A DNA stretch of 57,845 nt, from positions 1 through 57,845 of IMG/VR virus record IMGVR_UViG_3300025810_000007; one strand, 5' to 3'. The notes below the pieces were generated by a model. It searched no databases. It was given only the letters and a program-made list of their open reading frames with translations, and was not told the DNA's origin. Numbering within the stretch: the first letter of the stretch is position 1; each line of letters starts with the position of its first letter. This document shows, in pieces, positions 12,846-57,845 of the stretch. A program made the translations under genes and the position numbers. This stretch comes from a virus.

Positions 12846-13802
12846 TTAATTTACAGATTGTTGTTCTCGCAATAGTTGTTTGGCTATTGCTATTTTTTCC
12901 TCTCTAGTTTGTTCAACCTCATCAGTTAATAAATCAGCTAGATTAGTTGGACTATAAATAGATAATGCCATTGAACTACTTTCATTCAATACACTTTCAT
13001 TTAGTACAACACCTAATTTATCAGCTAACTCTTTTGCTTGGTCAAAGTATCTGTAAGATTTCAAACCAAGTTTTAGTTTTTGCATTTTCTTATCAACATG
13101 GTCAAAAAGATTTTTGTGTGCAAGAATTACATTGTCTTTTGCAACCATAAAAGATTTAAACCAATTATATTCTGCCTCATTGGTTTGAAACATACGACTA
13201 TGACAATAAGATGTTCCAATAACAATAAGTTTAAAATCATTTTCCCATTTATCTTTTTGAAAATCTGATTGTCCACTTACATCATTACGACTACCATAAC
13301 CCAAATATTTATTTACTGCACTTTCTGAATTATAATAAGTCGGATTTCTTTTGTCGTAATTGTCGCCAAGTCTTACATCATAATCTGCGTCAATGCCTTT
13401 TGCTTTCATCTCATCACGATAATAAGCAGTTAAAAATTCTTTATCTGCTTTAAACTCAACATGAACATCATCATATTTTTCAACTGGATTGTCGTTGTAG
13501 TCGGTGTCCATACGAGGTGTAGAGTTTTGAACATGAAAACAATTATCATCATATAATCTTCCACCACTTTCGCCATACTTATTAACCATAGAACGAATTG
13601 TATCTACATCTTCTTGTGGTTGATGAAATCTTACGAGATTATTTATTTTAACTTTTGCTTGTTCTCGCATATCATTGTAAGTTTCTTTTGCGTCTTGCCA
13701 TGCTTTCTTATATTTTGAATTATCTTCAAAATGGCTTTGAAATACATCTGCAATAACTTTTCTCTTATCTGCATTAAGAGTTTGTCTTTTTTCTTTAGTC
13801 AT
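12846..13802 (-). CDS. Hypothetical early protein (318 aa)
   Basis: 318 aa from the ATG at 13802, chosen because GAGGAAAC stands just before it; an ATG at 13835 lies at the expected transcription start and has no such site. The protein is charged, rich in Lys, Asp, Asn and Tyr, helical at both ends (KYKKAWQDAKETYNDMREQA near residue 30) and has an acidic C-terminus. No catalytic motif or membrane segment is seen. A strong promoter lies directly upstream, which fits an early takeover protein, but the role is unknown. Confidence 0.65.
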   Translation of the reverse strand: MTKEKRQTLNADKRKVIADVFQSHFEDNSKYKKAWQDAKETYNDMREQAKVKINNLVRFHQPQEDVDTIRSMVNKYGESGGRLYDDNCFHVQNSTPRMDTDYNDNPVEKYDDVHVEFKADKEFLTAYYRDEMKAKGIDADYDVRLGDNYDKRNPTYYNSESAVNKYLGYGSRNDVSGQSDFQKDKWENDFKLIVIGTSYCHSRMFQTNEAEYNWFKSFMVAKDNVILAHKNLFDHVDKKMQKLKLGLKSYRYFDQAKELADKLGVVLNESVLNESSSMALSIYSPTNLADLLTDEVEQTREEKIAIAKQLLREQQSVN

Positions 13803-13841
13803 GTTTCCTCTTTCTTGGTTATTTATTTTTTGCATGATTTG

Positions 13842-13870
13842 AAATTAGCACTTGACAAAAGGATTGTCAA
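13842..13870 (-). promoter_or_regulatory. Minus-strand promoter of the 318-aa gene
   Basis: On the minus strand TTGACA (13870-13865), 17 bases, TAATTT (13847-13842). It overlaps a plus-strand promoter, so the site fires in both directions. Confidence 0.6.
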
Positions 13871-13880
13871 GGATTATATA
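13852..13880 (+). promoter_or_regulatory. Plus-strand promoter into the structured region
   Basis: TTGACA (13852-13857), 17 bases, TATATA (13875-13880). The expected start is near 13887, about 315 bases before the first plus-strand ATG, so it should make a long untranslated RNA. Confidence 0.6.
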
Positions 13881-13886
13881 TGATGT

Positions 13887-14136
13887 TCAGCCTCATTTGA
13901 ATATTTATCGCTGAAACAAAACTATAAATATTCTGGGGACTTGCACCTACAAAAGCAAGTAGGATTAAAGCCAGGGATACACAGACAACCTGGCCTGATC
14001 CCTGGTTACTATACCATAGCCCGGTAAACATATGATACTATCGGGTCGGTCAATATAGGGAGCCCTAGAATAGTAACCTGGGATCAGTCAACGCGCCGCC
14101 GCCGCTAGAACACAGACAGTCTGGCGTTGGCTGGTC
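13887..14136 (+). ncRNA. Structured untranslated RNA candidate
   Basis: No ORF with a ribosome binding site lies here, but paired elements are dense. TTCAGC (13886-13891) pairs with GCTGAA near 13912. AATATTTAT pairs with ATAAATATT. CTTGC/GCAAG and CCTAC/GTAGG near 13940-13964 interleave as in an H-type pseudoknot. CCAGGGAT (13971-13978) pairs with ATCCCTGG (13998-14005), and an 18-base inverted repeat (13995-14012/14070-14087) has one mismatch. It follows a good promoter and precedes the heptamer arrays. It could be a regulatory leader, small RNA or origin; no known RNA family is recognised. Confidence 0.45.
13995..14087. repeat. 18-bp inverted repeat, 57-base spacing
   Basis: CTGATCCCTGGTTACTAT at 13995-14012 faces its reverse complement at 14070-14087 with one mismatch. 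The centre holds shorter pairs (CCCG/CGGG and AGGG-AG-CCCT). It could form a cruciform or a long RNA stem. Confidence 0.8.
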
Positions 14137-14157
14137 AAGCCGCAAGCTTCAAGCTTG
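14137..14157. repeat. Heptamer array A (AAGCNNC x3)
   Basis: Three head-to-tail 7-base units: AAGCCGC, AAGCTTC, AAGCTTG. The last unit runs into the -35 box TTGACA at 14155. Confidence 0.85.
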
Positions 14158-14183
14158 ACAGCTGGTGAAGGATACTATAGGAT
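14155..14183 (+). promoter_or_regulatory. Promoter at end of array A
   Basis: TTGACA (14155-14160) then GCTGG, 17-base spacer to TAGGAT (14178-14183), within TATAGGAT. The same TTGACAGCTGG...TATAGGAT block recurs after array B. It would serve the 41-aa gene at 14203. Confidence 0.45.
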
Positions 14184-14202
14184 GGATTTAGAAAGGAATA
14201 AT

Positions 14203-14328
14203 ATGGACAAAGAAATAAATGATAGATCAGTTAACCCGCTAATAAGAATAGCAGACGCTCTAGAAGAGATCCTGCGGCTGGTAAAGCAGGATATGGATCG
14301 AATGAAGAAAATAAATGAAGAGAATTAA
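14203..14328 (+). CDS. Small protein, first gene of the plus-strand island (41 aa)
   Basis: 41 codons with AGAAAGGA about six bases before the ATG; an in-frame ATG at 14182 is possible but has no such site. The protein is a single charged helix (IADALEEILRLVKQDMDRMK) and may be a short coiled coil. It overlaps the next gene by 14 bases. Function unknown. Confidence 0.55.
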   Translation: MDKEINDRSVNPLIRIADALEEILRLVKQDMDRMKKINEEN

Positions 14329-14533
14329 ACACAATAATTTGCTGCCATGGTTCACACAGGACCATGGCACATTGCCGGCCGCGTACCTGGCCAGCTGTGA
14401 AGAGTTCTTCAAATGGTTAGAAGACTGCAAGCGCACCGGGTTCAAAGCTCCAAGCAACAAGCCGCAAGCTCCAGGCTGCAAGCTTGACAGCTGGCCGGAT
14501 TCATGTTATAGGATAATAAAGGAGAAATTATGA
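14315..14533 (+). CDS. Small protein whose C-terminus is coded by heptamer repeats (72 aa)
   Basis: 72 aa. Residues 1-43 look ordinary (LLPWFTQDHGTLPAAYLASC, EEFFKWLEDCKRTG). The next stretch, APSNKPQAPGCKLDSW, is the translation of heptamer array B. The stop overlaps the ATG of the Gp88-like gene (ATGA), so coupling is likely. Array B also serves as upstream part of a promoter, so this end of the gene has two roles. Whether the protein is made is uncertain. Confidence 0.45.
   Translation: MKRIKHNNLLPWFTQDHGTLPAAYLASCEEFFKWLEDCKRTGFKAPSNKPQAPGCKLDSWPDSCYRIIKEKL
14445..14486. repeat. Heptamer array B (AAGCNNC x6)
   Basis: Six units in a row: AAGCTCC, AAGCAAC, AAGCCGC, AAGCTCC, AGGCTGC, AAGCTTG. 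Five of six keep AAGC and the last ends in TTGACA, exactly as array A does. Confidence 0.85.
14484..14512 (+). promoter_or_regulatory. Promoter at end of array B
   Basis: TTGACA (14484-14489), 17 bases, TATAGG (14507-14512), inside TATAGGATAAT. The Gp88-like ATG is at 14530 with AGGAGA upstream, so a short leader is expected. Confidence 0.45.
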
Positions 14534-15135
14534 AAACTGATGAAGCATTAAAAATTATAGGCGGCTCATTGAGCAAGCCTTCAAAGATGCCTGGCTGGTC
14601 AATTGGTTTACCTGCCAAAGAGTGCAAGACTGGCGGCAAGCTCCAGCAGGTGAAGGGCAGCGTCTGTTATGACTGTTACGCGCTCAAGGGCTGTTACGTT
14701 TTCAAAGTTGTTCAGGATGCACAGTATCGAAGGCTGGCAGCGTTGAAGAGTCCGGACTGGGTCCAGGCAATGGCTCACCTGATCAACAGCAAAAAGCCGG
14801 ACGTGTTCAGATGGCACGACAGCGGCGATGTACAAGATTTAAATCACTTACAAAAAATTTATGAAGTGTGCAAGTTAACACCTTCAAAAAAGCATTGGAT
14901 GCCAACTCGTGAAGCATGGATTAAGGACCATCTTCAGGATAAGCCAAACAATTTAGTCATACGATTTAGCGCGCCCATGGTGAACCAGCGGGCGCCTGCT
15001 TCGTGGCCTAACTCTTCAATGGTAGTGGACAAAGGTTTTCACACCTGCCCGGCTCCAGCTCAAGACAACGAGTGCAGAGACTGCAGACAATGTTGGGATC
15101 CAAAAATTAAAACGGTTTCATATGGTAAACATTAA
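14530..15135 (+). CDS. Gp88-like Cys-rich protein
   Basis: 201 aa with AAAGGAGA upstream. Near residue 40 it has GSVCYDCYALKGCYVF and near residue 185 ECRDCRQCWDP, with RWHDSGDVQDLNHL and MPTREAWIKDH between. This order (CYxC box, R-x-H-x-SGD box, T-R box, terminal CxxCxxCW) matches the phage gene-product-88 family as I know it. The Cys sets suggest a metal or Fe-S site; the biochemical role is not established. The gene is clearly GC-richer than its neighbours and lies on the opposite strand, which suggests transfer with the surrounding island. Confidence 0.7.
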   Translation: MKTDEALKIIGGSLSKPSKMPGWSIGLPAKECKTGGKLQQVKGSVCYDCYALKGCYVFKVVQDAQYRRLAALKSPDWVQAMAHLINSKKPDVFRWHDSGDVQDLNHLQKIYEVCKLTPSKKHWMPTREAWIKDHLQDKPNNLVIRFSAPMVNQRAPASWPNSSMVVDKGFHTCPAPAQDNECRDCRQCWDPKIKTVSYGKH

Positions 15136-15158
15136 AACAAAATTCCCGCGTGGAATAT

Positions 15159-15220
15159 CGGACCAGACTATTAGCGCTTCGGGCTCGTACGGCCTTACCA
15201 AGCGCGTACGTCCTGGTCCG
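15159..15220. other. Nested hairpin after the Gp88-like gene
   Basis: CGGACCAG (15159-15166) pairs with CTGGTCCG (15213-15220), and inside it GCGCTT (15174-15179) pairs with AAGCGC (15200-15205). Two CGTACG palindromes lie in the loops. It starts 24 bases after the Gp88-like stop, between convergent genes, so it may end transcription or be a stable RNA. Confidence 0.5.
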
Positions 15221-15226
15221 GGCCTA

Positions 15227-15261
15227 AAGCTTCAAGCTACAAGCGCCAAGCTTCAAGCACC
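15227..15261. repeat. Heptamer array C (AAGCNNC x5)
   Basis: AAGCTTC, AAGCTAC, AAGCGCC, AAGCTTC, AAGCACC, then AAG. It contains the stop codon of the VRR-NUC gene on the other strand. Confidence 0.88.
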
Positions 15262-15621
15262 AAGTTTTGATAAATATAAATGACAAGCCTCAAGCCCCAA
15301 GCTGCAAGCTTCAAGCTCCAAGCCACAAGCAACAAGTTCTTGAATCTTGGACCCTGGAAAAAGTTTCACGGTACTCGGACCGAGGGCCTCTACCATGATA
15401 AAGGTATTGTTAGGATGCCTAACATGGAAGGCTATTTGGTGTGGTGAAAATTTAATCTTGTTACCTGAAGTGACTTTCAGTTCGATAGTGAAAAAGTGAC
15501 CAGAAGTATTATAAGCCAATAGATCGGGAGTACCGTGTAAGCTATTATTTTCAAGTCGAATAAGCGAAATATTAGTAAAATGTTTTTTAATTTTTTGATA
15601 TAATTTACGCTCTGGTCCCAT
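15253..15621 (-). CDS. VRR-NUC nuclease with repeat-coded tail
   Basis: 122 aa. Residues 1-95 match VRR-NUC nucleases: ERKLYQKIKKHF, then GTPDLLAYN and FFTIELKVTSGNKIKFSPHQ, giving the PD...ExK metal site (Asp in GTPDL, Glu and Lys in ELK). The family includes structure-specific or recombination-type nucleases in phages. The last 30 residues (ELVACGLELEACSLGLEACH) are the reverse translation of heptamer array D, ending inside array C, so the repeats were probably inserted over the original stop. No good ribosome binding site is seen before 15621. Confidence 0.75.
   Translation of the reverse strand: MGPERKLYQKIKKHFTNISLIRLENNSLHGTPDLLAYNTSGHFFTIELKVTSGNKIKFSPHQIAFHVRHPNNTFIMVEALGPSTVKLFPGSKIQELVACGLELEACSLGLEACHLYLSKLGA
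15285..15333. repeat. Heptamer array D (AAGCNNC x7)
   Basis: Seven units: AAGCCTC, AAGCCCC, AAGCTGC, AAGCTTC, AAGCTCC, AAGCCAC, AAGCAAC. It lies inside the 3' end of the VRR-NUC gene, in antisense to it. Confidence 0.88.
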
Positions 15622-15649
15622 GCGTTTTTTAGAGTAACATTGTCATTCA

Positions 15650-15889
15650 TTAATAGTCCTTCTGAAGTTTATCTGGTAAGATAAGACTCGAAGGTTTTTC
15701 AGTTTTCATAACTAATCTGTGAGCACTACGACCTGGCTGGCCTATGATAGGAACTGCATTTTCATGTACTTCCATACGTCGGATTGCATGCAACTTTCCT
15801 TTTATCTCGACATAGATAACTGCATTTTTTACTGCGTCAGAACCTTTTGTAAAGTTACTCAAGAATAGCTGCAAGTCTTGAACTCTCAT
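15650..15889 (-). CDS. Hypothetical protein (79 aa)
   Basis: 79 aa, mixed alpha/beta in appearance: MRVQDLQLFLSNFTKGSDAV, then NAVIYVEIKGKLHAIRRMEV. The start overlaps the stop of the coiled-coil gene upstream (ATGA). It is followed by the VRR-NUC gene, so the three may be one unit from the promoter at 16110-16138. No family recognised. Confidence 0.62.
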   Translation of the reverse strand: MRVQDLQLFLSNFTKGSDAVKNAVIYVEIKGKLHAIRRMEVHENAVPIIGQPGRSAHRLVMKTEKPSSLILPDKLQKDY

Positions 15890-16101
15890 GAATCTTTTCG
15901 TCTTAACTTGTTGGATAAATCCTCTATCACTTTTTTATAACCTTGCAAGAGATTTATGTTTTTTTCATTCTCGTATGAGAATTTTTTCCAGTAATAAATT
16001 TGTCTTTGAGCATCAACTAACAACTGTTGATACATCTTAATGGTAAGTTTAAGATTATCTATTTGTTTGGTTAAATCTAGATTTCCTCTGTCATCTTTCA
16101 T
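15886..16101 (-). CDS. Small coiled-coil protein (71 aa)
   Basis: 71 aa from ATG at 16101, starting MKDDRGNLDLTKQIDNLKLT and continuing as one long helix with Leu/Ile heptads. The upstream extension to 16119 would start before the expected +1 near 16103, so 16101 is preferred and the message is leaderless. It is read from the minus half of a bidirectional promoter. Function unknown. Confidence 0.62.
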   Translation of the reverse strand: MKDDRGNLDLTKQIDNLKLTIKMYQQLLVDAQRQIYYWKKFSYENEKNINLLQGYKKVIEDLSNKLRRKDS

Positions 16102-16140: not shown

Positions 16141-16617
16141 ATGGGTGTTCCAAAAAGATTAACAGAGATGCAACAGAGGTTCGCAGAGTTTTTAGTATTC
16201 GGTGGACCAGATGGACCTATGACTCAAACAGAAGCAGCTATCGCTGCTGGGTATAGTCCTAAACGTGCAAGACAAGAAGGATCAGAATTATGCAACCCAA
16301 GACAATCACCTCTTGTTGTAAAATATATCGGTCAGTTAAGAGAAGAAAGACTTCGTAAACATGAAGTGACTTATGAAGGTCACGTTGCAGAGCTTGCTAG
16401 ACTCCGTGAAGCCGCTTTAAAAAAAGGATCGTTTTCTTCTGCAGTGAATGCGGAAGCAAACAGAGGAAAAGCAGCAGGACTATACATAGATAGGAAGATA
16501 ATAAAAACAGGAAAATTAGAGGACCTATCAGAACAAGAACTAGAAGCAAAAATGAAACAGATATTAGACGATTACGCACAGATAATTGATGTGACTCCAA
16601 AGGTTTCATCTTCTTAA
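16141..16617 (+). CDS. terS: Terminase small subunit
   Basis: 158 aa from ATG at 16141 (a TTG three codons earlier is also open). The N-terminal domain fits phage small terminases: RLTEMQQRFAEFLVFGG, then TQTEAAIAAGYSPKRARQEG, a helix-turn-helix that binds the packaging site, then helical oligomer-forming segments (KYIGQLREERLRKHE) and an acidic tail. It recruits the large subunit to viral DNA. It is alone on the plus strand, far from terL, with its own leaderless promoter. Confidence 0.85.
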   Translation: MGVPKRLTEMQQRFAEFLVFGGPDGPMTQTEAAIAAGYSPKRARQEGSELCNPRQSPLVVKYIGQLREERLRKHEVTYEGHVAELARLREAALKKGSFSSAVNAEANRGKAAGLYIDRKIIKTGKLEDLSEQELEAKMKQILDDYAQIIDVTPKVSSS

Positions 16618-17208
16618 ATTAAAAGAAATAGATATTCTCTCCTCTTGACTAAAATTAGGCGTTACCAAATGTGGTAACCAACCTGGAAACAATAACAGTT
16701 TGTTTTCTTTAGGAGTGACGTTCCATGCAGGTAAGTTATGTGGTGTATACTTTTCCATCAAATGTGGTTCCCAATCATACTCTATAACATTGTTAGAAGG
16801 ATGTTTAAAATTTATAGTTCCTGAATTTTTAGGAACATTAATATAATAAACACCAGCTAACACAGCGTTAGGATGTATATGTTGTGAGTTCCAATCTTTA
16901 TAACCATTTACATTTACCCAAATATTTGAAATCTTTAATTTTTGAGAATAGTGTATTTTCTTTCTATATTCTTCTCCTGCTTTTAATATTTCTTTAAAAA
17001 GTTTACCTAAAACAGGTGTTTGTTTTATAACATCTTTTATAACAGGATCATCTCCACCCAGTTTTGGAGACTGCCAACCGCCTGCATTACTTGCATCAAA
17101 ACTAACTTTATGTCTTTGTTTAAATTTTAAACAATATTTAGATAACTCATTAAGATTTAATTTTAAATCTTTACTGTAAAGCAATGTAGGAAATAAATCT
17201 TCGAACAT
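16606..17208 (-). CDS. 2OG-Fe(II) oxygenase, type A (LFPT family)
   Basis: 200 aa from ATG at 17208; this start gives MFEDLFPTLLY, aligning with the MxxxLFPT starts of the paralogues at 20698 and 48355, and overlaps the upstream stop by one base. The core has HIHPNAVLAGVYYINVP, then LLFPGWLPHLV and ERISISFNLRR. The His-x-His and the later His are the likely iron ligands, with Arg binding 2-oxoglutarate. This pattern is that of the TIGR02466/2OG-FeII_Oxy_5 type as I know it. Such enzymes hydroxylate a substrate using oxygen and 2-oxoglutarate; the substrate is unknown. Confidence 0.78.
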   Translation of the reverse strand: MFEDLFPTLLYSKDLKLNLNELSKYCLKFKQRHKVSFDASNAGGWQSPKLGGDDPVIKDVIKQTPVLGKLFKEILKAGEEYRKKIHYSQKLKISNIWVNVNGYKDWNSQHIHPNAVLAGVYYINVPKNSGTINFKHPSNNVIEYDWEPHLMEKYTPHNLPAWNVTPKENKLLLFPGWLPHLVTPNFSQEERISISFNLRR

Positions 17209-17501
17209 TAAATTTTTTGAATCTTCTTCACCCACTGACGAGGTATCATAGTACGATCCCCAAACGTAATACTATCCTCATCTAAATCATAAGACGCAAA
17301 TAGTTTTATTGAATCTTTATCTTTAGAGTATAACCAACCTTCATTAACAGGTCTTGCTAATTTCATTTTGTCAAACTCTTTGTCGGTAGCCCAGCCCGAG
17401 TCGCTGACACAATCAATCCACTCCACTCGAACTCTCGGATAAGGTATATCGGGAGCACCTTCAGCTGCAATTCGTTTTCGTCTTTTCCTAGGCATATTCA
17501 T
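17208..17501 (-). CDS. Hypothetical protein with basic N-terminus (97 aa)
   Basis: 97 aa (95 if started at the second Met). A basic start (MPRKRRKRIAAEG) is followed by a compact Trp-rich region (VRVEWIDCVSDSGWATDKEF, then NEGWLYSKDKDSIKLFAS). The last part resembles a small beta barrel. It precedes a 2OG oxygenase with a one-base overlap, so the two may be made together. No named family. Confidence 0.6.
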   Translation of the reverse strand: MNMPRKRRKRIAAEGAPDIPYPRVRVEWIDCVSDSGWATDKEFDKMKLARPVNEGWLYSKDKDSIKLFASYDLDEDSITFGDRTMIPRQWVKKIQKI

Positions 17502-17838
17502 TTTTACTCTTTCGACACCTAAATGACAATTTATTTTTTTCTTGCGCTAAAAATAAAAAAAAACTGAAGGGTGTCGCAAAACCCTGAAATTGAGCTATAA
17601 CCGTTGGTATATATGAATAGTAGCTTCGACACCCCCCCCGTCGCAAGGGTATCGCAAGGGTATCGCAAGTGTCGACTTTTTGCCTCGATTTCGCCATAAT
17701 TGTACACTTCTGACGCAGTTTAGACCAAAGTTCGACACCTTTGCGACACCCTGCCGACACCCTGCCGACACCCATTCGATACCAGAGAGTCCTGGATAAA
17801 CTACGTGATAATCCTATAAATAGGTTAGTAATCATGAC
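17502..17838. repeat. 11-base motif array in a 337-base gap
   Basis: A gap richer in GC than the genome holds many copies of a motif close to TTGCGAYACCC. CGACACC occurs at 17513, 17627, 17733, 17744, 17755 and 17766, and as its reverse complement at 17570. TCGCAAGGGTA is repeated head to tail from 17641. The right cluster has TGCCGACACCC with 11-base spacing and the left cluster is its inverse. An ORF across it (17835..17488) looks like a by-product of the repeats. It could be an operator or origin region; no promoter is obvious inside. Confidence 0.7.
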
Positions 17839-18066
17839 CTATAATACCTGCTTGTCTGCCTTATTTTGGACATAATATTTCCTCATTACTGCCATTTTGT
17901 CTTCAGCTTCAGCAATAAGCTGTAATAGTTTGTCAACCTCACCTGTTATATCTATGTGTTCAGGTATAATTATATTGTTTTCATTAAAAGACTGTATCTT
18001 GTACCGTGCGTCTTCAATATCTGCTTCATACTTCTTTAGAAGTGTTCTAAATAACATTTCATTCAT
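17839..18066 (-). CDS. Small helical protein (75 aa)
   Basis: 75 aa, charged and helical (LLKKYEADIEDARYKIQSFN, then EVDKLLQLIAEAEDKMAVMR), probably a coiled coil. Its ATG overlaps the end of the 36-codon ORF upstream by eight bases. Function unknown. Confidence 0.6.
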   Translation of the reverse strand: MNEMLFRTLLKKYEADIEDARYKIQSFNENNIIIPEHIDITGEVDKLLQLIAEAEDKMAVMRKYYVQNKADKQVL

Positions 18067-18169
18067 CTCTCCACCTCTTCATTATTATTTTATTATGTTC
18101 ATCTTCGTACATGATCCATGACTTTTTACCATCAAAGTAATACCCATGTATTTTTCTTTTTACTTTCAT
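18059..18169 (-). CDS. Small ORF between nuclease and coiled-coil gene (36 aa)
   Basis: 36 codons, MKVKRKIHGYYFDGKKSWIM and so on, basic and Tyr-rich. Its start overlaps the nuclease stop (ATGA) and its stop overlaps the next start, filling the gap exactly, as other genes here do. No family. Confidence 0.5.
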   Translation of the reverse strand: MKVKRKIHGYYFDGKKSWIMYEDEHNKIIMKRWRDE

Positions 18170-18930
18170 TTAAAGTCCTCCTCTTTCATTTTTACATTAG
18201 CTTGTTCTTTCTCATCATGTTTTATTTCATGATACATATCCAAACGTTTAAGAAACTTATGCTTCCACTTACGAAGCTCTGCTCCTTCAACTTTGAATTC
18301 TTGATAGTATAGATCAGGAGTACAAATCATTATAACTCCTTGTTCTATCTTACTATTATGCACATAGTCATGTGCCATGGCGTATGCAGCAATCTGCATA
18401 AAGTAATCTTCAATCCACTCTACTTTCTTTGGTCTGTTCGATTGTTTAAAATCTACAATAGATTCTTTACCATTATGAGAGCAAACTAAATCAGTAGACC
18501 CAGCGTAAAGGCCAGGATAATATAATGTAACTTCAGAGCCATACCACTCTTCAACAGGTGCAAGACCGATCTCAATAACTTTTTGGGCCATGGTTTTCGC
18601 CTTCTGTCCGAGCTCTGTAAGATCATCGTAGCCAGTTCCGAGGATATAGTGCTCCAAGAATTTGTGCATAGCTGTCCCCCGATTACTCGATAGATTTTTG
18701 ATTCGCTCTGCTTCTTGTTCTCCAACTTTGGCCTTCCAGTCTTTTAAAAATTGTTGATCTTTGGTCGCCCCTAATATCGTAGTGACAGAAGGAAGTCTAG
18801 TACCATTTACATCATAGAGCCGTGTTCCGTGGTCCTCGTGTCTTGTTGCATCGACATAGGTATACTTATCACTCTTCTTGATCTTTCGACCAATGTTATG
18901 AAATTCTCTTATATCTTCGTCATTCATCAT
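18166..18930 (-). CDS. PD-(D/E)XK nuclease (Cas4/RecB-like)
   Basis: 254 aa. The N-terminus has RLPSVTTILGATKDQQFLKD, and near residue 95 RGTAMHKFLEHYI supplies the conserved His. The metal site is GSTDLV followed by SIVDFKQSNRPKK (Asp and Asp-x-Lys) near residues 155-175, followed by the motif IV helix with DYFMQIAAYAMAH. This is the RecB/Cas4-type exonuclease core. It probably trims DNA ends in recombination or host DNA breakdown. No Cys of the Cas4 Fe-S type are seen. Confidence 0.8.
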   Translation of the reverse strand: MMNDEDIREFHNIGRKIKKSDKYTYVDATRHEDHGTRLYDVNGTRLPSVTTILGATKDQQFLKDWKAKVGEQEAERIKNLSSNRGTAMHKFLEHYILGTGYDDLTELGQKAKTMAQKVIEIGLAPVEEWYGSEVTLYYPGLYAGSTDLVCSHNGKESIVDFKQSNRPKKVEWIEDYFMQIAAYAMAHDYVHNSKIEQGVIMICTPDLYYQEFKVEGAELRKWKHKFLKRLDMYHEIKHDEKEQANVKMKEEDFK

Positions 18931-19592
18931 TTATTTTTATCCTTTAAATATGCTGGAGCAAAATTTTTAATCGCATTCAATGGTGCTGAATCGTGTATAT
19001 TACCACTAACCGAGATCCGTGTACAATCACTCTTAAACGGTGCAACCCAGTGTTTTAACCACGCAGGAAAGATAAACATATCTCCTTCTTCAGGAAAGAA
19101 AGACATATAAGTTACACAATCTCTAGGTCCATTACCATAGATAAACTGTATACCTCCAGGTCCACAGCTCTTACCATTATAATCAGCATTCTCTTTTTTT
19201 AACTCTTCAGGTATCTGTAAGTATGTTACAAAAGACAACTTACCATCATGATCATGTGGTGGGTTAAACTCATTAGCTTTCTGATAATTTATCCACATAG
19301 TAGTCAAGATATATTCAGGTCTTTTCTCGTACGGTTTATTAATAAATTTTTCAAACATCTGGTCATATACACCAAGATATTGAGACATATACGGTACAGC
19401 TTTAGCTTTAGCTTCTTCACTATACCCCGTCTCTTTCTCTATGATTCCTGCTAGTTTATCTCTAAAATCTTTTTTATTATCTTTAGCTTCATTCAATAAA
19501 AAATTTTTAAACTCATCAGTTATCTTTAATTTAATAACACAGGGTCCCCAATTAAATACACTGACGTTTATCTTTTCTTGTTCATTACTCAT
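18927..19592 (-). CDS. 2OG-Fe(II) oxygenase, divergent type A
   Basis: 221 aa, the longest of the oxygenase set before the nuclease gene. The core is FNPPHDHDGKLSFVTYLQIP (His113 or His115 with Asp116), then MFIFPAWLKHWVAPF (His181) and TRISVSGNIH (Arg192). A loop with GKSCGPGGIQFIYGN separates the halves. It starts the run of four oxygenase genes in row (19592 down to 20695 upstream). Its stop overlaps the nuclease start. Substrate unknown. Confidence 0.75.
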   Translation of the reverse strand: MSNEQEKINVSVFNWGPCVIKLKITDEFKNFLLNEAKDNKKDFRDKLAGIIEKETGYSEEAKAKAVPYMSQYLGVYDQMFEKFINKPYEKRPEYILTTMWINYQKANEFNPPHDHDGKLSFVTYLQIPEELKKENADYNGKSCGPGGIQFIYGNGPRDCVTYMSFFPEEGDMFIFPAWLKHWVAPFKSDCTRISVSGNIHDSAPLNAIKNFAPAYLKDKNK

Positions 19593-19601
19593 ACTATCTC
19601 C

Positions 19602-20093
19602 TTATTTATCATAATAATTTATATTTAACACGACCCTTTGATTCTGATCTGTGCATGTGCTGCTTGAATGTTTTAGTTTAGAATTGAAAATGACCACTCT
19701 ATTGTCTACACAATCGACTTTACTACCATCTTCAAAGTGTGTTGCGCCATTTGTTGTGTTAAAATACATAATGGCTGTCTTATTTTTATTAGGTGGATCA
19801 TAATCTGTATGATAACCATGAATTAATTTTTTGTGTGATCTGGTTATTAAATTAGCTTTTACTCTCATGATTGCTTTACAATTTAATTTATTAACTATCG
19901 GTGGTACAATATCATTGTAGTAGTTGGACCACATCTTATGGTCTTCGTAGAAGAAATGTATAAACTGAAAACCTTCTTTATCTTCACGACTGTTTACATA
20001 ATCATTGTAGTGCCAAGGAAAAAACTCACCACATAAAATAGCTTTCATTTTTCCATATTCTTCTGGTTCTAAAAAATTATCTATTATCTTCAT
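19602..20093 (-). CDS. 2OG-Fe(II) oxygenase, short type C
   Basis: 163 aa. The core is IHGYHTDYDPPNKNKTAIMY (His95 and Asp97), GATHFEDGS, then SKLKHSSSTCTDQNQRVVLN (His142, Arg153). It is a clear paralogue of the plus-strand protein at 34610: both share FPW, MRVKANL and the H-(S/T)-x-(S/T)-x-C-T-D box. The small size leaves little beyond the catalytic fold. Substrate unknown. Confidence 0.78.
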   Translation of the reverse strand: MKIIDNFLEPEEYGKMKAILCGEFFPWHYNDYVNSREDKEGFQFIHFFYEDHKMWSNYYNDIVPPIVNKLNCKAIMRVKANLITRSHKKLIHGYHTDYDPPNKNKTAIMYFNTTNGATHFEDGSKVDCVDNRVVIFNSKLKHSSSTCTDQNQRVVLNINYYDK

Positions 20094-20698
20094 ATACTTA
20101 ATAAATTTAGTTCTAAATCATCACCGATTGTACCTTCTACAAAAACGTTAAAAGATAAACTTATTCTTAAATCATCTTCTTGTTTTACATCAACACCGTG
20201 CATTAAACTTGATGGAAACAAAAATATATCTCCTGTGTGAACAGGATGCCACCAAGACTTACAGTTGTAGGCATTAACTACTTCAGGTGTTAGCTCTATC
20301 ATAGGGTTATTATCTTTATAAAATTTTATAGTGTCTACTTCTCTATTTGCTTTAATATATAAGACTCCAGACAATACACTATTGGAGTGTCTGTGTATGT
20401 GATGACCTTGATTCTTTTCATTCCAGTTTAACCAAGATTGTGTAATGATAGGTGTTACATTGTTCTTACTTTGAAAAACATTATCAAAGTAATATTGTAT
20501 GCATGTAAATAATTTTTTTTTAAGTTTAACAAGATTCTTATCATGTAATACAAAAGTTTCTTTAGAATATTTATTACCCCCTGCATTTAATACAGCATTT
20601 TTTTTATATTTATCAAAACAATTCAATTCTTTATTTGTAAATGGTCTTGTCATTGCAGACATAAATATCGGTGTTGGAAATAAACCTTCTATTTTCAT
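20090..20698 (-). CDS. 2OG-Fe(II) oxygenase, type A (LFPT family)
   Basis: 202 aa, starting MKIEGLFPTPIF. Core HHIHRHSNSVLSGVLYIKAN (His100 and His102), then IFLFPSSLMHGVDV (His167) and LRISLSFNVF (Arg178). It aligns over its whole length with the proteins at 16606 and 47765. It overlaps both neighbours by four bases (ATGA), which fixes the start. Probably a hydroxylase; the target may be protein, nucleobase or small molecule. Confidence 0.8.
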   Translation of the reverse strand: MKIEGLFPTPIFMSAMTRPFTNKELNCFDKYKKNAVLNAGGNKYSKETFVLHDKNLVKLKKKLFTCIQYYFDNVFQSKNNVTPIITQSWLNWNEKNQGHHIHRHSNSVLSGVLYIKANREVDTIKFYKDNNPMIELTPEVVNAYNCKSWWHPVHTGDIFLFPSSLMHGVDVKQEDDLRISLSFNVFVEGTIGDDLELNLLSI

Positions 20699-21255
20699 CT
20701 AAACTTTGGTCCTCTTAAAAATATAGCTAATGTAATTCTCTCTCCTTTTGTAATAGGAGTTACTTTGTGATATGTTGGTGATTTAATCATAACAGTATCA
20801 CCAGGATTCTTAAACTCTGGTATCATAAACTCTTCACCTGTAAAAATTTTTAAGTCACCGCCTTCATATTTTTTTTCAGAAAGATTAATTAATATTGTTA
20901 ATTTGATATCGCAGTTCTCACCTTGTGTTGTTGCATCACAGTGCCAGCCATATTCAGAATCTTTACCTTTGTAAGAGTTATAATTTACATGGGCCCAATT
21001 GTTTAATGGAAATACATCATAACCAAAGACATCTTGATTTATGTAAGAATAATATTCTACTACCTCATTCAAATAGTCTTTCATCTTTCTCCAGGCTATG
21101 GTTTTTGTTGTAAGCTTTTTTACATCTTTGTAATTAGCTTTTACTGATTGTTCATTACCATCAAAATTTTTTTTTATATATTTATTTATATCTTTTATTT
21201 GTTTTGAATTTAAAAATGATTGTTTAAACCAGTATTCATATCTATTCTGAATCAT
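20695..21255 (-). CDS. 2OG-Fe(II) oxygenase, prolyl-hydroxylase type B
   Basis: 186 aa from ATG at 21255, preferred over 21294 because GAGAAGAAG stands before it and the earlier start lies well inside the upstream gene. Core YGWHCDATTQGENCDIKLTI (His105, Asp107), KYEGGDLKIFTGE, then YHKVTPITKGERITLAIFL (His163, Arg173). The Y-E-G-G-D-L and H-x-V-x-P-x-x-x-G-x-R boxes are typical of PKHD/prolyl-4-hydroxylase-like enzymes. It overlaps the preceding gene and the next oxygenase. Confidence 0.8.
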   Translation of the reverse strand: MIQNRYEYWFKQSFLNSKQIKDINKYIKKNFDGNEQSVKANYKDVKKLTTKTIAWRKMKDYLNEVVEYYSYINQDVFGYDVFPLNNWAHVNYNSYKGKDSEYGWHCDATTQGENCDIKLTILINLSEKKYEGGDLKIFTGEEFMIPEFKNPGDTVMIKSPTYHKVTPITKGERITLAIFLRGPKFR

Positions 21256-21403
21256 CTTCTTCTCTTTCTTTCTGTTCTTTTTCAAATCCTTCATCTAACA
21301 TTTCGGATAGTGTCTTTTCTTTCTTAAAAATTTCATCAAAGTTTTTACGATACAAATCATTAGAAGGTCTACTTATACCATCAAATTTTTCTTTTTTACT
21401 CAT
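21242..21403 (-). CDS. Small charged protein (53 aa)
   Basis: 53 codons, MSKKEKFDGISRPSNDLYRK, then FDEIFKKEKTLSEMLDEGF and an acidic tail. It overlaps the gene upstream by eight bases and the oxygenase downstream by 14. The FDGISRPSNDLYRKNFDEIF type sequence is one I associate with marine phages. Function unknown. Confidence 0.6.
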   Translation of the reverse strand: MSKKEKFDGISRPSNDLYRKNFDEIFKKEKTLSEMLDEGFEKEQKEREEDDSE

Positions 21404-33188: not shown

Positions 33189-34619
33189 ATGAATTATAAA
33201 TTTAAAACTAAACCTTATGCACATCAATTAACTGCATTGGAAAAATCTTGGAACAAAGAAAACTTTGCTTACTTCATGGAAATGGGTACAGGCAAAACAA
33301 AAGTTTTGATTGATAATATGTCTATGCTTTATGACAAAGGTAAAGTTGATGGTGCATTAATCATAGCTCCCAAAGGTGTTATAAAAACCTGGTATGAGCA
33401 AGAGCTTCCTGCGCACTTACCAAACCATATAGAGAATGTGACTGTATTATGGCAAGCTAATATTACAAAAGGACAACAAGAAAAACTAGAAAGCCTGTTT
33501 GAAATAGAGACTGCATTACATATTTTAATTATGAATGTTGAAGCTTTATCTACAGACAAAGGTGTAAAGTTTGCTGGTAAATTTTTAAACTCACACAAAG
33601 TCATAATGGCTATTGATGAGTCTACAACTATTAAAACACCTACAGCTAAACGAACTAAAAATATTATAGATCTTGGTAAATATGCAAAATATAAAAGAAT
33701 AATGACAGGTTCTCCTGTTACTAAAAATCCTTTAGATTTGTATTCTCAATGTGAATTTTTAGATCCTTATCTGTTAGATTTTACTTCTTATTATGCGTTT
33801 CGTAATAGGTATGCAGAAATGAAAACTATGCATCTTCGTGGTAGATCAATACAGGTTGTAGACGAGTTTAAAAATCTTGGAGAGTTATCTGACACTGTAA
33901 AAACTTTTTCTGAAAGAATTTTAAAAGAGGATTGTTTAGATTTACCACCAAAAAATTTTATTAAACGACATATTGTTCTTACAGGTGAACAAAGAAAAGC
34001 TTACGATCAAATGAAGAAAGCAGCTATGGCTGTATTAAACGGTAAAGTTACAACTACTATGACAGTGTTAACGCAGCTAATGAGACTACATCAAATTACA
34101 TGTGGACATTTTACAGCTGATGATGGTTCAGTTCAGTTAATTGAAAACAATAGAATAAAAGAACTAATGAATGTATTAGAAGAAACAGAAGGTAAAGCTA
34201 TAATTTGGGCTAACTATCAGAGAGATATTACAAATATAATAGAAAATATTATTAAAGTTTATGGTCCAGGGTCCGTGGTTGATTATTATGGATTAACGCC
34301 ACAAGAAGAACGACAAGATAATATTAAAAAGTTTCAAAATAATAAGAACTGTAGATTTATCGTAGGCACAACACAAACAGGTGGTTATGGCATTACACTT
34401 ACACAAGCAAACACAGTTATATATTATTCTAATGGGTATGATTTAGAAAAAAGATTACAGTCAGAAGATAGAGCACACAGAATAGGCCAAACCAAATCAG
34501 TGACATATGTGGACTTAATTGCTGAAGATACAGTTGATGAAAAAATCGTGAAAGCTTTACGCGATAAAATAAATATAGCATCTGAAGTATTAGGAGAGGA
34601 GTTAAAACAATGGATATAA
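33189..34619 (+). CDS. SNF2-type DEAD-box helicase
   Basis: 476 aa. Walker A MEMGTGKTKVLID (31-43), motif II VIMAIDESTT near 138-146, motif III KRIMTGSPVTKNPLDL, motif V GTTQTGGYGITLTQAN, motif VI RLQSEDRAHRIGQTKS. The EDRAHRIGQ box is typical of the SNF2/helicase superfamily 2. Such phage proteins remodel or unwind DNA in replication or recombination. It is transcribed apart from the other replication genes, with its own promoter, and overlaps the oxygenase downstream by ten bases. Confidence 0.9.
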   Translation: MNYKFKTKPYAHQLTALEKSWNKENFAYFMEMGTGKTKVLIDNMSMLYDKGKVDGALIIAPKGVIKTWYEQELPAHLPNHIENVTVLWQANITKGQQEKLESLFEIETALHILIMNVEALSTDKGVKFAGKFLNSHKVIMAIDESTTIKTPTAKRTKNIIDLGKYAKYKRIMTGSPVTKNPLDLYSQCEFLDPYLLDFTSYYAFRNRYAEMKTMHLRGRSIQVVDEFKNLGELSDTVKTFSERILKEDCLDLPPKNFIKRHIVLTGEQRKAYDQMKKAAMAVLNGKVTTTMTVLTQLMRLHQITCGHFTADDGSVQLIENNRIKELMNVLEETEGKAIIWANYQRDITNIIENIIKVYGPGSVVDYYGLTPQEERQDNIKKFQNNKNCRFIVGTTQTGGYGITLTQANTVIYYSNGYDLEKRLQSEDRAHRIGQTKSVTYVDLIAEDTVDEKIVKALRDKINIASEVLGEELKQWI

Positions 34620-35092
34620 AAGTGCATGAAAACTTTATGGATTACTTTTTGTTTTTAAAATTAAAAGAAACTATGAGCAATCAATATTTTCCTTGGTACA
34701 AAAATCGTATTGTAGATGAAACAGATGATGTTCAAATGGTTCATAATTTTTTTGAGTTTAACAAAATTAACTCTGAATTTTTTGAACTTCTAACCCCTTG
34801 CATAGACCGTTTAAAAGTTGAAAAGTTAATAAGAGTAAAAGCTAATTTAGTTTTACGAACTCCTAAAATACAAGAACATGGTTTTCATATTGACAATCAA
34901 ACATATAAAGAATTTAAAACTGCTATATTATATATAAACTCTAATAATGGTTATACTCGTTTTGAAAAAAAGAATAAAAAAATTAAAAGTGAAGAAAATA
35001 AATTAATAGATTTTAATGGTCGTTTACAACATACAGGAACTAGTTGTACCGATACTCCATATAGAATGGTGATTAATTTTGTTTATCTCTAA
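34610..35092 (+). CDS. 2OG-Fe(II) oxygenase, short type C (plus strand)
   Basis: 160 aa. Core EHGFHIDNQTYKEFKTAILY (His93, Asp95), NGYTRFEKK, then GRLQHTGTSCTDTPYRMVIN (His141, Arg152). It is the closest paralogue of the 19602 protein. GAGGAG stands eight bases before the ATG, inside the helicase gene. Coupling to the SNF2 helicase is a hint that the substrate may be DNA-linked, though this is inference. Confidence 0.78.
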   Translation: MDIKVHENFMDYFLFLKLKETMSNQYFPWYKNRIVDETDDVQMVHNFFEFNKINSEFFELLTPCIDRLKVEKLIRVKANLVLRTPKIQEHGFHIDNQTYKEFKTAILYINSNNGYTRFEKKNKKIKSEENKLIDFNGRLQHTGTSCTDTPYRMVINFVYL

Positions 35093-35565
35093 ACTAAATC
35101 TTTAGCTTTTCCCATTACAGGTTTGTATTTTGTTTTACCTTCTGATTTAAATGCATGTAAAAATGATGCTCTTGGTGTTCCTTCTATCCACGAGCAATGT
35201 ATCCATCCGCTATTAGGTTCACCTGGAGTATAGAACTCAAGAATGAGCTGATCTGGTGAAAGGTTTGATTTAATCCAATCAAAAAGTTCAGCATTATCAA
35301 CTCCCACACATTCGAAATCTGCCGCTTCAGCTTTTGCATGCTGCGACCGTGCCGAGCTGCCGATGGCTTCACACAGCGCTACGCTACGGAAACCGCTGGT
35401 AATCTTAACCCTGCCAAAATGGTCACGTACCGGCTGCAAAATATTTTCACATAATGCTTTTAATTTTTCTACTTGTTCTGCGTTAGGATTATTATTGATA
35501 CCCCTACGGATCGCTGTGTCCGATTTGATTAATTCTGACAAAGTAAAATTACGTGTAAGTTGCAT
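35089..35565 (-). CDS. Peptidase M15 endolysin
   Basis: 158 aa. TLSELIKSDTAIRRGINNNP is a typical start of M15A peptidases. The zinc site has SARSQHAKAEAADFE (His76, Asp83) and GWIHCSW (His about 131). It cuts the peptide part of peptidoglycan, releasing progeny. No signal peptide is seen, so a holin would be needed to let it through the membrane. It converges on the plus-strand oxygenase gene, overlapping by four bases. Confidence 0.85.
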   Translation of the reverse strand: MQLTRNFTLSELIKSDTAIRRGINNNPNAEQVEKLKALCENILQPVRDHFGRVKITSGFRSVALCEAIGSSARSQHAKAEAADFECVGVDNAELFDWIKSNLSPDQLILEFYTPGEPNSGWIHCSWIEGTPRASFLHAFKSEGKTKYKPVMGKAKDLV

Positions 35566-35567
35566 TT

Positions 35568-36236
35568 TTAATATTTTATATTAAACTTTATACCATCTTT
35601 TGGATTAAATTTGTAATTATTTCCTAACATACTTTTAACATTTTTCATGTGTTCTATTATGCTAGTAGGCATATCTTGTAAAAAACAATTTGTACTATAC
35701 CTTACGCCTTTTGTTATTGGTTTTACTTCGTGGACCCAAAAATAATCTGCAGGAAATATTAAAGCATCTCCTCTTTTTAATTTTATTTTTTTCTTTCCTC
35801 TAAAAAATGTAAACTCACCACCTTCATATTCTTCATTTAAATTAAATGTACAAGATCCATAAACATGAGGGTCATGATCTGTATGAGGGTGTATTTTAGC
35901 TCCTGTTTCATATTTCATTAATCTTAACTTATGTGCATACAACATACTTTTTCTTTTCCATTTATGAAACATTTTAAATTCATCTGTATAGTCTTGCCAC
36001 ATATTAATTATTTTTTCTATAGATGAAGAAACTAATTCATTTTCTTTTGTTCCGTACGTAATATCTATTACATCAAAAGTAGAAAGTGTGTTAATTCCTG
36101 TTTCAGCGTGAGGACAATATTCTTTAGTTTTTTTAATTTTATTTTTTTCATAAAATTTAATTAAAGAATCACATTGTTTTTTTGATAAAAAATTAGGTTT
36201 GTGTAAAATTAATTTAGTAATGTCAAAGGTGTTCAT
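35568..36236 (-). CDS. 2OG-Fe(II) oxygenase, prolyl-hydroxylase type B
   Basis: 222 aa from ATG at 36236; a longer reading to 36296 would run back through the 58-aa membrane gene. Core KIHPHTDHDPHVYGSCTFNL (His118, Asp120), YEGGEFTFFRGKKK, then FWVHEVKPITKGVRYSTNCF (His169, Arg179). It belongs to the same type as the proteins at 20695 and 47196. It lies between the endolysin and the internal-virion operon. Confidence 0.8.
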   Translation of the reverse strand: MNTFDITKLILHKPNFLSKKQCDSLIKFYEKNKIKKTKEYCPHAETGINTLSTFDVIDITYGTKENELVSSSIEKIINMWQDYTDEFKMFHKWKRKSMLYAHKLRLMKYETGAKIHPHTDHDPHVYGSCTFNLNEEYEGGEFTFFRGKKKIKLKRGDALIFPADYFWVHEVKPITKGVRYSTNCFLQDMPTSIIEHMKNVKSMLGNNYKFNPKDGIKFNIKY

Positions 36237-47195: not shown

Positions 47196-47768
47196 CTACC
47201 TAAAATTTTTACCTGTGATCCAGCCAACAAGAGAGTTTCTCTCTCCTTTTGAGACTTTGGTCACTTCGTGTAAAGTATAACTAGGAAAACAAAACAAACT
47301 TCCTTTGGTTTTATCTAACACAGTTCCTTTTGAACCATCGAATAAAACCAAGTTTCCTCCTTTGTAGTCTTTAGAATCAGATAATTGTACACTAAAAGAT
47401 AGTTTTCTAATTACTTTTTCATATCTTTTATCAACATGTTTTTTGTATTTACCATGTGGTGCTTTATAATGTGTAAATTGCAAGTTGTCACTAAATCCAG
47501 ATATATCAAAATTAAACCATTTATTATTTACATCTAGAATACATTTACTTAATTTATTAAAAATCCAACCTGTGGTTTTTGTATTATATGATATCCATTT
47601 TACTTTACTATCTCTATAAGATTTTACTGTTTCTAATTCTTTTACAAGACCGTTTTGAAGTTTTTCTTTCATACACATATTTACAATTTCATCACATTCA
47701 TTTTCTGTAAAAAGTCTATCAACGTTTACATAAAAAGGCACTGTGTCTTTTTCAAAAGAAATACTCAT
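47196..47768 (-). CDS. 2OG-Fe(II) oxygenase, prolyl-hydroxylase type B
   Basis: 190 aa. Core KYKKHVDKRYEKVIRKLSFS (His111, Asp113), DYKGGNLVLFDGS, then YTLHEVTKVSKGERNSLVGW (His167, Arg177). A PKHD-type enzyme. Together with the next oxygenase it interrupts the virion operon, between the tail hub gene and the fibre genes. The two genes overlap by four bases (ATGA). Confidence 0.8.
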   Translation of the reverse strand: MSISFEKDTVPFYVNVDRLFTENECDEIVNMCMKEKLQNGLVKELETVKSYRDSKVKWISYNTKTTGWIFNKLSKCILDVNNKWFNFDISGFSDNLQFTHYKAPHGKYKKHVDKRYEKVIRKLSFSVQLSDSKDYKGGNLVLFDGSKGTVLDKTKGSLFCFPSYTLHEVTKVSKGERNSLVGWITGKNFR

Positions 47769-48355
47769 CTGTTTTCTTTTATTTTAAAATTATATGCAAA
47801 AGATATTCTAGTATCTTTAGATTTGTTTTGTTTTACTTGATGAAACATATTAGATTTAAATATTACAAGTAAACCTTCTTTTGGAGGAACTTCAAAAGTC
47901 TTCCAAGTATAAGGATTATCTTGATTAAAAATATTTTTACCTACTGGCTCATGACTATTAAAAACTAAATTTCCAGAACCTTTAGGACTTTTTAAAAAAT
48001 AAACTGCTGATATATCATCATGATCAGGTAAATGATTATGCATTTCTTGATAATCATATTGTTTATAAAAATTAAACCAACTAGAGGATACTGAAATATT
48101 ACAATTTAAAAAACCAATAGCTGCTATATAATTATAAACTTGAGCAAAAATCCAAGAATTTAAGTTATCAAACTCTTTATCCATATGGATAGGATAAGTC
48201 CCTGATGTATTATAAACACCACTTGACCAATTTAAACCACCCATTCCGATATTTGATTTAATTTTTTTACAATGTTTAATTAAATGTTTTTCTTTATGGT
48301 GATTTTTGTTTTCTTCAAAACCAATTACTGTTGGAAATAATTCCCTTAAATTCAT
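47765..48355 (-). CDS. 2OG-Fe(II) oxygenase, type A (LFPT family)
   Basis: 196 aa, starting MNLRELFPTVIGF. Core EMHNHLPDHDDISAVYFLKS (His106 and His108), then VIFKSNMFHQVKQN (His172) and TRISFAYNFKI (Arg183). It aligns with the 16606 and 20090 proteins. The neighbouring adhesin and fibres are possible substrates, but no evidence shows that. Confidence 0.78.
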   Translation of the reverse strand: MNLRELFPTVIGFEENKNHHKEKHLIKHCKKIKSNIGMGGLNWSSGVYNTSGTYPIHMDKEFDNLNSWIFAQVYNYIAAIGFLNCNISVSSSWFNFYKQYDYQEMHNHLPDHDDISAVYFLKSPKGSGNLVFNSHEPVGKNIFNQDNPYTWKTFEVPPKEGLLVIFKSNMFHQVKQNKSKDTRISFAYNFKIKENR

Positions 48356-57468: not shown

Positions 57469-57845
57469 TATTGTTCTCCTATTCTAGCTTTACGATTGTA
57501 GCTCAATTAGATTAGCAACTACTACTACAGATCTGAAAGCCGCATTTTCATCGTTTTCAGGATCTTCAGCAGATCGAAGTAATCTCCAAGAGTCTGCATC
57601 AGCACTTGTATCTCCGATATCTAACGTAGCTGAAGACTGACCAGTAGTTGTACTACCAGCTGTTGTATTCATATCATACGTTTCTAGATATCCAGATTGC
57701 GCTACTGCAGCATCTGTTGCTACTACATATTGTTGTTGTGGGTTATCGAATACAAATGCATCGATATCTTCTGAGTTTGCTGGTGTTACTTGAACGTAAT
57801 GATTCGCAAACGTCGGCTTTAAAGTTGTAGCCGCGTTGTAGAATA
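57449..57845. repeat. Right copy of contig-end repeat
   Basis: Partner of bases 1-397: 127 identical bases (57449-57575), then about 22 substitutions to the end. The overlap includes the start of the capsid gene and the 3' part of a variant decoration gene. Confidence 0.9.
57490..57845 (-). CDS. Second allele of the decoration protein, 5' truncated
   Basis: The last 118 codons of the 186-aa protein in a variant form, cut by the contig end. Most of the substitutions relative to 42-602 are silent or conservative, but they include YDMNASAGSTT against YDMNTTAGSTT and VATDDAVAQSG against VATDAAVAQSG. The frame stays open, so it is a real allele from another strain or copy and not an error. Confidence 0.75.
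   Translation of the reverse strand, partial: FYNAATTLKPTFANHYVQVTPANSEDIDAFVFDNPQQQYVVATDAAVAQSGYLETYDMNTTAGSTTTGQSSATLDIGDTSADADSWRLLRSAEDPENDENAAFRSVVVVANLIELQS

Follow-up and report, generated by a model that had tools for sequence, protein, structure and literature searches.

Promoter-linked arrays of seven-base CAAGC repeats in pelagiphages related to HTVC027P

Organization of the locus

The window analysed here is a viral DNA of 57,845 nucleotides (IMG/VR record IMGVR_UViG_3300025810_000007). It is related to the Pelagibacter phage HTVC027P, a 57.6-kb SAR11 phage. Pelagiphages are very abundant viruses of SAR11, the commonest bacteria of the ocean. HTVC027P is the sole match to the array region among 50,697 records (72% identity), and it has the same locus layout as the window: a short rightward operon, framed by arrays of seven-base repeats, that runs into a convergent nuclease-like gene.

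A predicted promoter without an array, P0 (13852–13880, + strand; TTGACA, a 17-base spacer and TATATA), would, judged from its sequence, transcribe the hairpin RNA region rightward. Its -35 region (13852–13870) is palindromic, TTGACAA-aagga-TTGTCAA, and is located between this hairpin RNA and the divergent gene of a 329-residue protein. P0 may be a two-way promoter with an operator. The 329-residue protein is conserved, and its AlphaFold model has a mean pLDDT of 76. It was considered as a known DNA-binding fold and set aside, with no PDB match at E < 0.2.

The RNA hairpin cassette (13995–14087, + strand) has an outer stem, CTGATCCC/GGGATCAG, with a U·U mismatch, a covarying inner stem and a variable loop, and its fold has a z score of -4.8. 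There are 0–5 copies of such cassettes upstream of array 1 in each locus (also in L139, L169, L187, L009 and others). The outer stem is invariant, and the U·U mismatch is kept in 133 of 148 cassettes. Eight further pairs are 94–99% paired, with all pair types, and the loops are unrelated between cassettes. Among the pairs of the 148 cassettes there are 103 G-T as compared to 4 A-C, and therefore it is the + strand RNA that folds. The cassettes have no match in Rfam or to a known RNA family, and are possibly a new phage RNA family. More GC-rich noncoding blocks, for example GTCAACGCGCCGCCGCCGCTAGAACACAGACAGTCTGGCGTTGGCTGGTC, are found at 14088–14136 of the window and in L133, L197 and L209, with mosaic sharing among the phages. 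They are perhaps more structured RNA domains.

Array 1 (14136–14154, + strand) consists of three CAAGC cores at 7-base spacing, the last of which abuts the -35 element of promoter P1 (14155–14183, + strand; TTGACA-17-TAGGAT, with a TATAGG overlapping it two bases upstream). Behind P1 is a small open reading frame of 41 residues (14203–14328, + strand), gp34-like from its position as compared with gp34 of HTVC027P. It is followed by one of 72 residues (14315–14533, + strand), which has 39% identity to an unannotated reading frame of HTVC027P, with array 2 coding for its C-terminal tail. Array 2 (14445–14483, + strand; AAGCTCC, AAGCAAC, AAGCCGC, AAGCTCC, AGGCTGC and AAGC) abuts the -35 element of promoter P2 (14484–14512, + strand; TTGACA-17-TATAGG, from the sequence). 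The next gene belongs to the GP88 family (14530–15135, + strand; PF17338) and is, from the Pfam match and direct comparison, a homologue of HTVC027P gp33. Its stop codon is overlapped by a gp32-like reading frame of 53 residues (15122–15283, + strand; SDQTIS...RPGPG), the tail of which is encoded by array 3.

Arrays 3 (15227–15261, + strand; five exact units) and 4 (15284–15333, + strand; seven exact units) have no promoter. The final codons of the nuclease-like gene (15253–15621, - strand; weak Hjc and PHROG helicase-nuclease matches) fall within these two arrays. A possible RNA stem, GGACCAG/CTGGTCC, lies between the GP88 stop codon and array 3 (15160–15219, + strand), but it is weak. This stretch was dropped as a conserved RNA because the small reading frame accounts for much of the region and the pair changes are few.

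Elsewhere in the window, about nine reading frames (within 16606–21294, 34610–36236 and 47196–48355) look on inspection like proteins of the 2OG-Fe(II) oxygenase type, which is unusually many for a single phage genome. One gene of HTVC027P is annotated as this type. The two ends of the window (57490–57672 and 42–602) share near-identical coding sequence (TTAGSTTTGQSSATLDIGDTSADA...), which suggests an end repeat or a duplicated segment. In HTVC027P (L009), TGTTTCACGTGAAACG is found at about position 6300, just past the arrays, and is one base off the bacterial parS consensus. It is absent from the window, and its likeness to parS is possibly a coincidence within coding sequence.

Structure of the arrays

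Direct reading of the sequence from 13600 to 15900 places four array blocks within 14137–15333, in agreement with the original prediction. This prediction counted 21 AAGCNNC units. Eighteen are exact (2, 4, 5 and 7 by block), and the total of 21 is reached only by including three near-units: AAGCTTG, which closes both blocks 1 and 2, and AGGCTGC inside block 2. All the units are on the + strand. Nearly every AAGCNNC unit is preceded by C, and because of this the unit is best described as a CAAGC core followed by two free bases. AAGCNNC and CAAGC-NN are one object in two registers.

The arrays do not arise from the base composition of the window, a possibility raised with the prediction. Fourteen tandem AAGCNNC doublets are observed, as compared to 0.08 expected from dinucleotide shuffles, and the reversed pattern, used as a control, gives no matches. 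In the region of arrays 3 and 4 the identity at lags of 7, 14, 21 and 28 is 0.64, 0.58, 0.53 and 0.47, respectively, and about 0.2 at other lags; the periodicity is thus restricted to multiples of 7. The arrays of the window are rich in C and poor in G (47 C and 22 G among 126 bases).

Distribution among related phages

The arrays are not limited to this assembly. They are found in over 200 related phage contigs, at one locus and always on one strand. When the search was started from GP88, arrays were present in almost all relatives with enough flanking sequence. When viral contigs were scanned with the AAGCNNC pattern, a GP88 relative was found at 86 of 120 loci among the matches listed, and of the 34 without one, 32 contain other HTVC027P-type phage genes. 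The window, HTVC027P and three further long contigs have no array of more than two units outside this locus. There are no arrays near the GP88 gene of HTVC033P (47% identity in GP88).

The spacing and the word of the array differ between lineages. A scan for 8-base spacing finds GP88, at 51–93% identity, at 59 of 120 loci among the matches listed, whereas a scan for 9-base spacing finds it at 0 of 120 among those listed. Therefore, the locus uses spacings of 7 and 8, and not 9. The 9-base spacing was rejected as a further class, and this set serves as a control. In the clade around phage 023Pt_psg01 (L329, L344–L356), RAGC tetramer repeats take the place of the heptamers at syntenic positions, and contain G at least as often as C.

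Conservation of the array units

The constraint on each base was assessed with 515 internal units, each flanked by two perfect units, in contigs chosen by GP88 and not by their arrays. Positions 1–4 and 7 are 97–99% conserved, whereas base use at positions 5 and 6 is close to even. Between related phages, the differences are 0.04–0.07 at positions 1–4 and 0.14 at position 7, as compared to 0.19 in the flanks and 0.37–0.44 at the free positions, the last figure being inflated by misplaced registers. The distance between neighbouring CAAGC cores is 7 in 1911 cases, 8 in 25, 9 in 6 and 6 in 5.

Adjacent phage units have the same free dinucleotide in 5.7% of cases (7.6% expected), as compared to 65% in bacterial AAGCNNC arrays. 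Units at lag 3 share it above expectation (14% versus 7%), which is tentatively attributed to related arrays or to reading-frame effects. Among the closest pairs of near-identical phages, no unit has been gained or lost. Recent slippage is therefore unsupported, as the free bases are not shared between neighbours and copy number is constant. This goes against one of the two readings first offered for the arrays, and against the copy-number variation that it led one to look for among close relatives.

An AAGCNNC array is free of stop codons in all three forward frames and, because 7 equals 1 modulo 3, encodes the same heptapeptide, K-X-Q-A-X-S-X, in each of them. Among 151 units that share a codon phase, none has lost the A at the four-fold degenerate site or the C of AGC (151 of 151 for each), and the other synonymous sites are 97–99% conserved. 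Synonymous sites of both kinds within the arrays, two-fold and four-fold (97–100% conserved), are thus as well conserved as the remaining sites, and selection therefore acts on the nucleic acid and not on the protein. Arrays of at least three units number 207 on the transcribed strand and 0 on the other. These counts, like the others given here, pool related sequences and so are not independent events.

Coupling to promoters and expression class

Arrays 1 and 2 run directly into sigma-70-type promoters, with TTGACA followed by a -10 element after 17 bases. Across the relatives, the consensus arrangement is CAAGC-TTGACA-17-TATAAT. A first count gave 137 promoters with 7-base arrays, and a later count 336 distinct ones. 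The last core touches TTGACA in 219 of these 336, and the spacer is 17 bases in 300. A promoter abuts 151 of 208 upstream arrays, as compared to 1 of 324 downstream arrays. In most of the upstream arrays that do not abut, one degenerate unit intervenes or there is another promoter-like sequence. Shared ancestry could partly be behind the exact phase with the -35 element.

Among 32 array promoters in the lineages with 8-base spacing, 17 have a further core in the stretch between the -35 and -10 elements, and in 14 of these its offset is identical; the frequency is 60 of 1240 for promoters without an upstream core. A further variant is observed upstream of GP88 in L374, L378, L381 and L450, where the arrays are followed by a palindrome such as TGCGACAAATTGTCGCA and a CGTGTTAA element. 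These replace TTGACA and TATAAT, so that the same arrays here precede promoters of another class.

Of the 17 promoter-like sites in HTVC027P, just two have arrays, those of gp34 and gp33. Transcript starts are predicted shortly downstream of positions 17395 and 17718 of its genome (MN698241, minus strand). In the text of the published HTVC027P transcriptome, from which the class assignment is taken, exactly gp33 and gp34 form 'extra cluster 2', high at 6–9 hpi; no early gene has a known function, and no mechanism is given for the gp33/gp34 class (PMC12753301). The separate class is independent support for a behaviour that the two promoters with arrays have in common and that sets them apart from the others.

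Possible functions of the arrays

With about even confidence, we consider the arrays to be cis-acting, operator-like strips for a predicted cooperative DNA-binding protein. Of the two original readings, a binding array or slippage, it is the former that is favoured by the fixed and free positions, the constant spacing and the placement at promoters. Each CAAGC unit would be one site, and the exact 7-base spacing would let copies of one protein sit side by side. The protein bound at arrays 1 and 2 would control RNA polymerase at P1 and P2, as suggested by the arrays ending exactly at the -35 element and by the cores between the -35 and -10 elements in some relatives. The simplest guess is repression once an early-middle burst is over, preferred over activation because P1 and P2 are near consensus. 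Arrays 3 and 4, which follow the final gene in the operon, may be a second docking site, for cooperative loading, looping or a boundary.

Several observations do not fit this model easily. Arrays 3 and 4 lack a promoter although they are the longest, and the presence of all 207 arrays on the transcribed strand is what an RNA element would also give. The RAGC clade is hard to square with a strict geometry, unless the protein has changed too. Among the Pfam matches of 51 window proteins (25 families listed of 36), there is no ribbon-helix-helix (RHH), ParA or other regulator family, nor does the divergent 329-residue protein, the single candidate modelled, match a known fold. No RHH or ParA was found in ten proteins scanned singly, although a divergent RHH fold could escape such a scan.

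The strongest rival, although in our view unlikely, is a role in RNA. The arrays would act at the 3' ends of the rightward units (the P0 hairpin RNA, P1 and P2) to bind a protein, to terminate transcription (by loading Rho) or to affect RNA stability, and their closeness to promoters would reflect compactness. It ranks first among the rivals because the arrays are all on the transcribed strand and the excess of G-T over A-C pairs identifies the adjoining hairpins as + strand RNA. Moreover, no intrinsic terminator was found in a scan downstream of GP88, and the C-rich, G-poor composition of the window arrays fits Rho utilization. However, a Rho site would not predict the conserved A-A-G, nor repeats with as much G as in the RAGC clade. 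The fold of the array RNA is ordinary (z scores of -1.3 and +0.5), and a role in RNA leaves the exact abutment on the -35 element and the cores in the promoter spacer unexplained.

It is improbable that the arrays serve a small terminase or an initiator as packaging (pac) or replication sites. Direct-repeat sites are common for such proteins, and array 4 is followed, about 0.8 kb downstream and beyond the nuclease-like gene, by the terminase small-subunit gene, which is also near the arrays in HTVC027P and psg01. However, no accumulation of contig ends is seen at the arrays, which speaks against a physical genome end there. GC skew shows no switch beyond that of gene orientation, and an origin activity, which was to be checked, gains no support from it or from the position of the arrays. 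The placement on two promoters would also be unexplained.

A functional repetitive protein tail, K-X-Q-A-X-S-X, is very improbable. Two small reading frames and the opposite-strand nuclease gene do end in array sequence, such tails are present on many gp32-like reading frames, and the tetramer clade also encodes Q/A/S-rich tails. On the other hand, the four-fold and AGC/AGT sites are fixed, there is no obvious reading frame through array 1, and the length and the end of the tail vary, so any protein function would be at most secondary. Neutral slippage is hardly credible: seven-base tandem repeats do expand in this way, as the largely homogeneous bacterial AAGCNNC arrays illustrate, but neighbouring phage units differ at their free bases more than by chance, the nearest relatives have equal copy numbers, and substitutions are several times rarer at the fixed bases than at the free ones.

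Returning to the operator-like array, a more tentative extension, which we consider less likely than not, concerns the HTVC027P-type pelagiphages as a group. Their regulatory locus may combine two new parts, the arrays and a variable set of adjoining RNA hairpin cassettes. The array spacing (7 or 8) or word (RAGC) may co-vary by lineage with the predicted cooperative protein, and the arrays may give this island a time class of its own. If true, this would be a natural case of the spacing and the word of a binding array changing between lineages. The conserved array at exactly the gp33 and gp34 promoters provides a testable handle, and a bait for the regulator.

Comparison with known systems

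An operator-like array of this kind is probably previously undescribed. Arrays of this kind are not known to have been described in phages, and the literature searched, itself only part of the whole, contains no report of one. Lambda-type origin iterons and P1 pac hexamers are direct-repeat arrays read as a group by phage proteins. Their units are longer or otherwise spaced and do not abut a -35 element, and the pelagiphage arrays show no sign of an origin or of packaging in contig ends or GC skew.

The cyanobacterial STRR sequences, for which our search returned no paper, likewise have seven-base tandem units, but the word is different. The phage arrays, unlike STRR, are linked to promoters, have heterogeneous free bases and are under selection; the near-identical neighbours and variable copy number of slippage-type repeats are not found in them. 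Bacterial genomes do contain AAGCNNC arrays, as was to be checked, with the same consensus by construction of the search. These come from unrelated bacteria, and were rejected as homologues since they are mostly homogeneous or near the chance expectation. They are expected from slippage and chance in a collection of 257 Gb.

The closest likeness is to the parS sites of plasmid pSM19035. Dimers of its omega protein, a ParB of the ribbon-helix-helix type, bind 7–10 unspaced 7-bp units that have a 5-base core and overlap promoters; binding is weak on a single heptad and cooperative in tandem, and full activation of ParA (delta) needs at least four contiguous units (PMC9499535). The omega heptad is WATCACW, in mixed orientations, whereas the phage word is CAAGC-NN, always in one orientation. 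Omega belongs to a ParA/ParB partition system, whereas no RHH or ParA homologue is recognised among the Pfam families listed for the window. The phage arrays are therefore not a member of the omega system, because the word differs and these partners are not recognised. As in pSM19035, however, the phage arrays are made of 7-bp direct repeats that follow one another without gaps at promoters, each with a 5-base core, and the best explanation, by analogy, is that they would work like the omega heptads.
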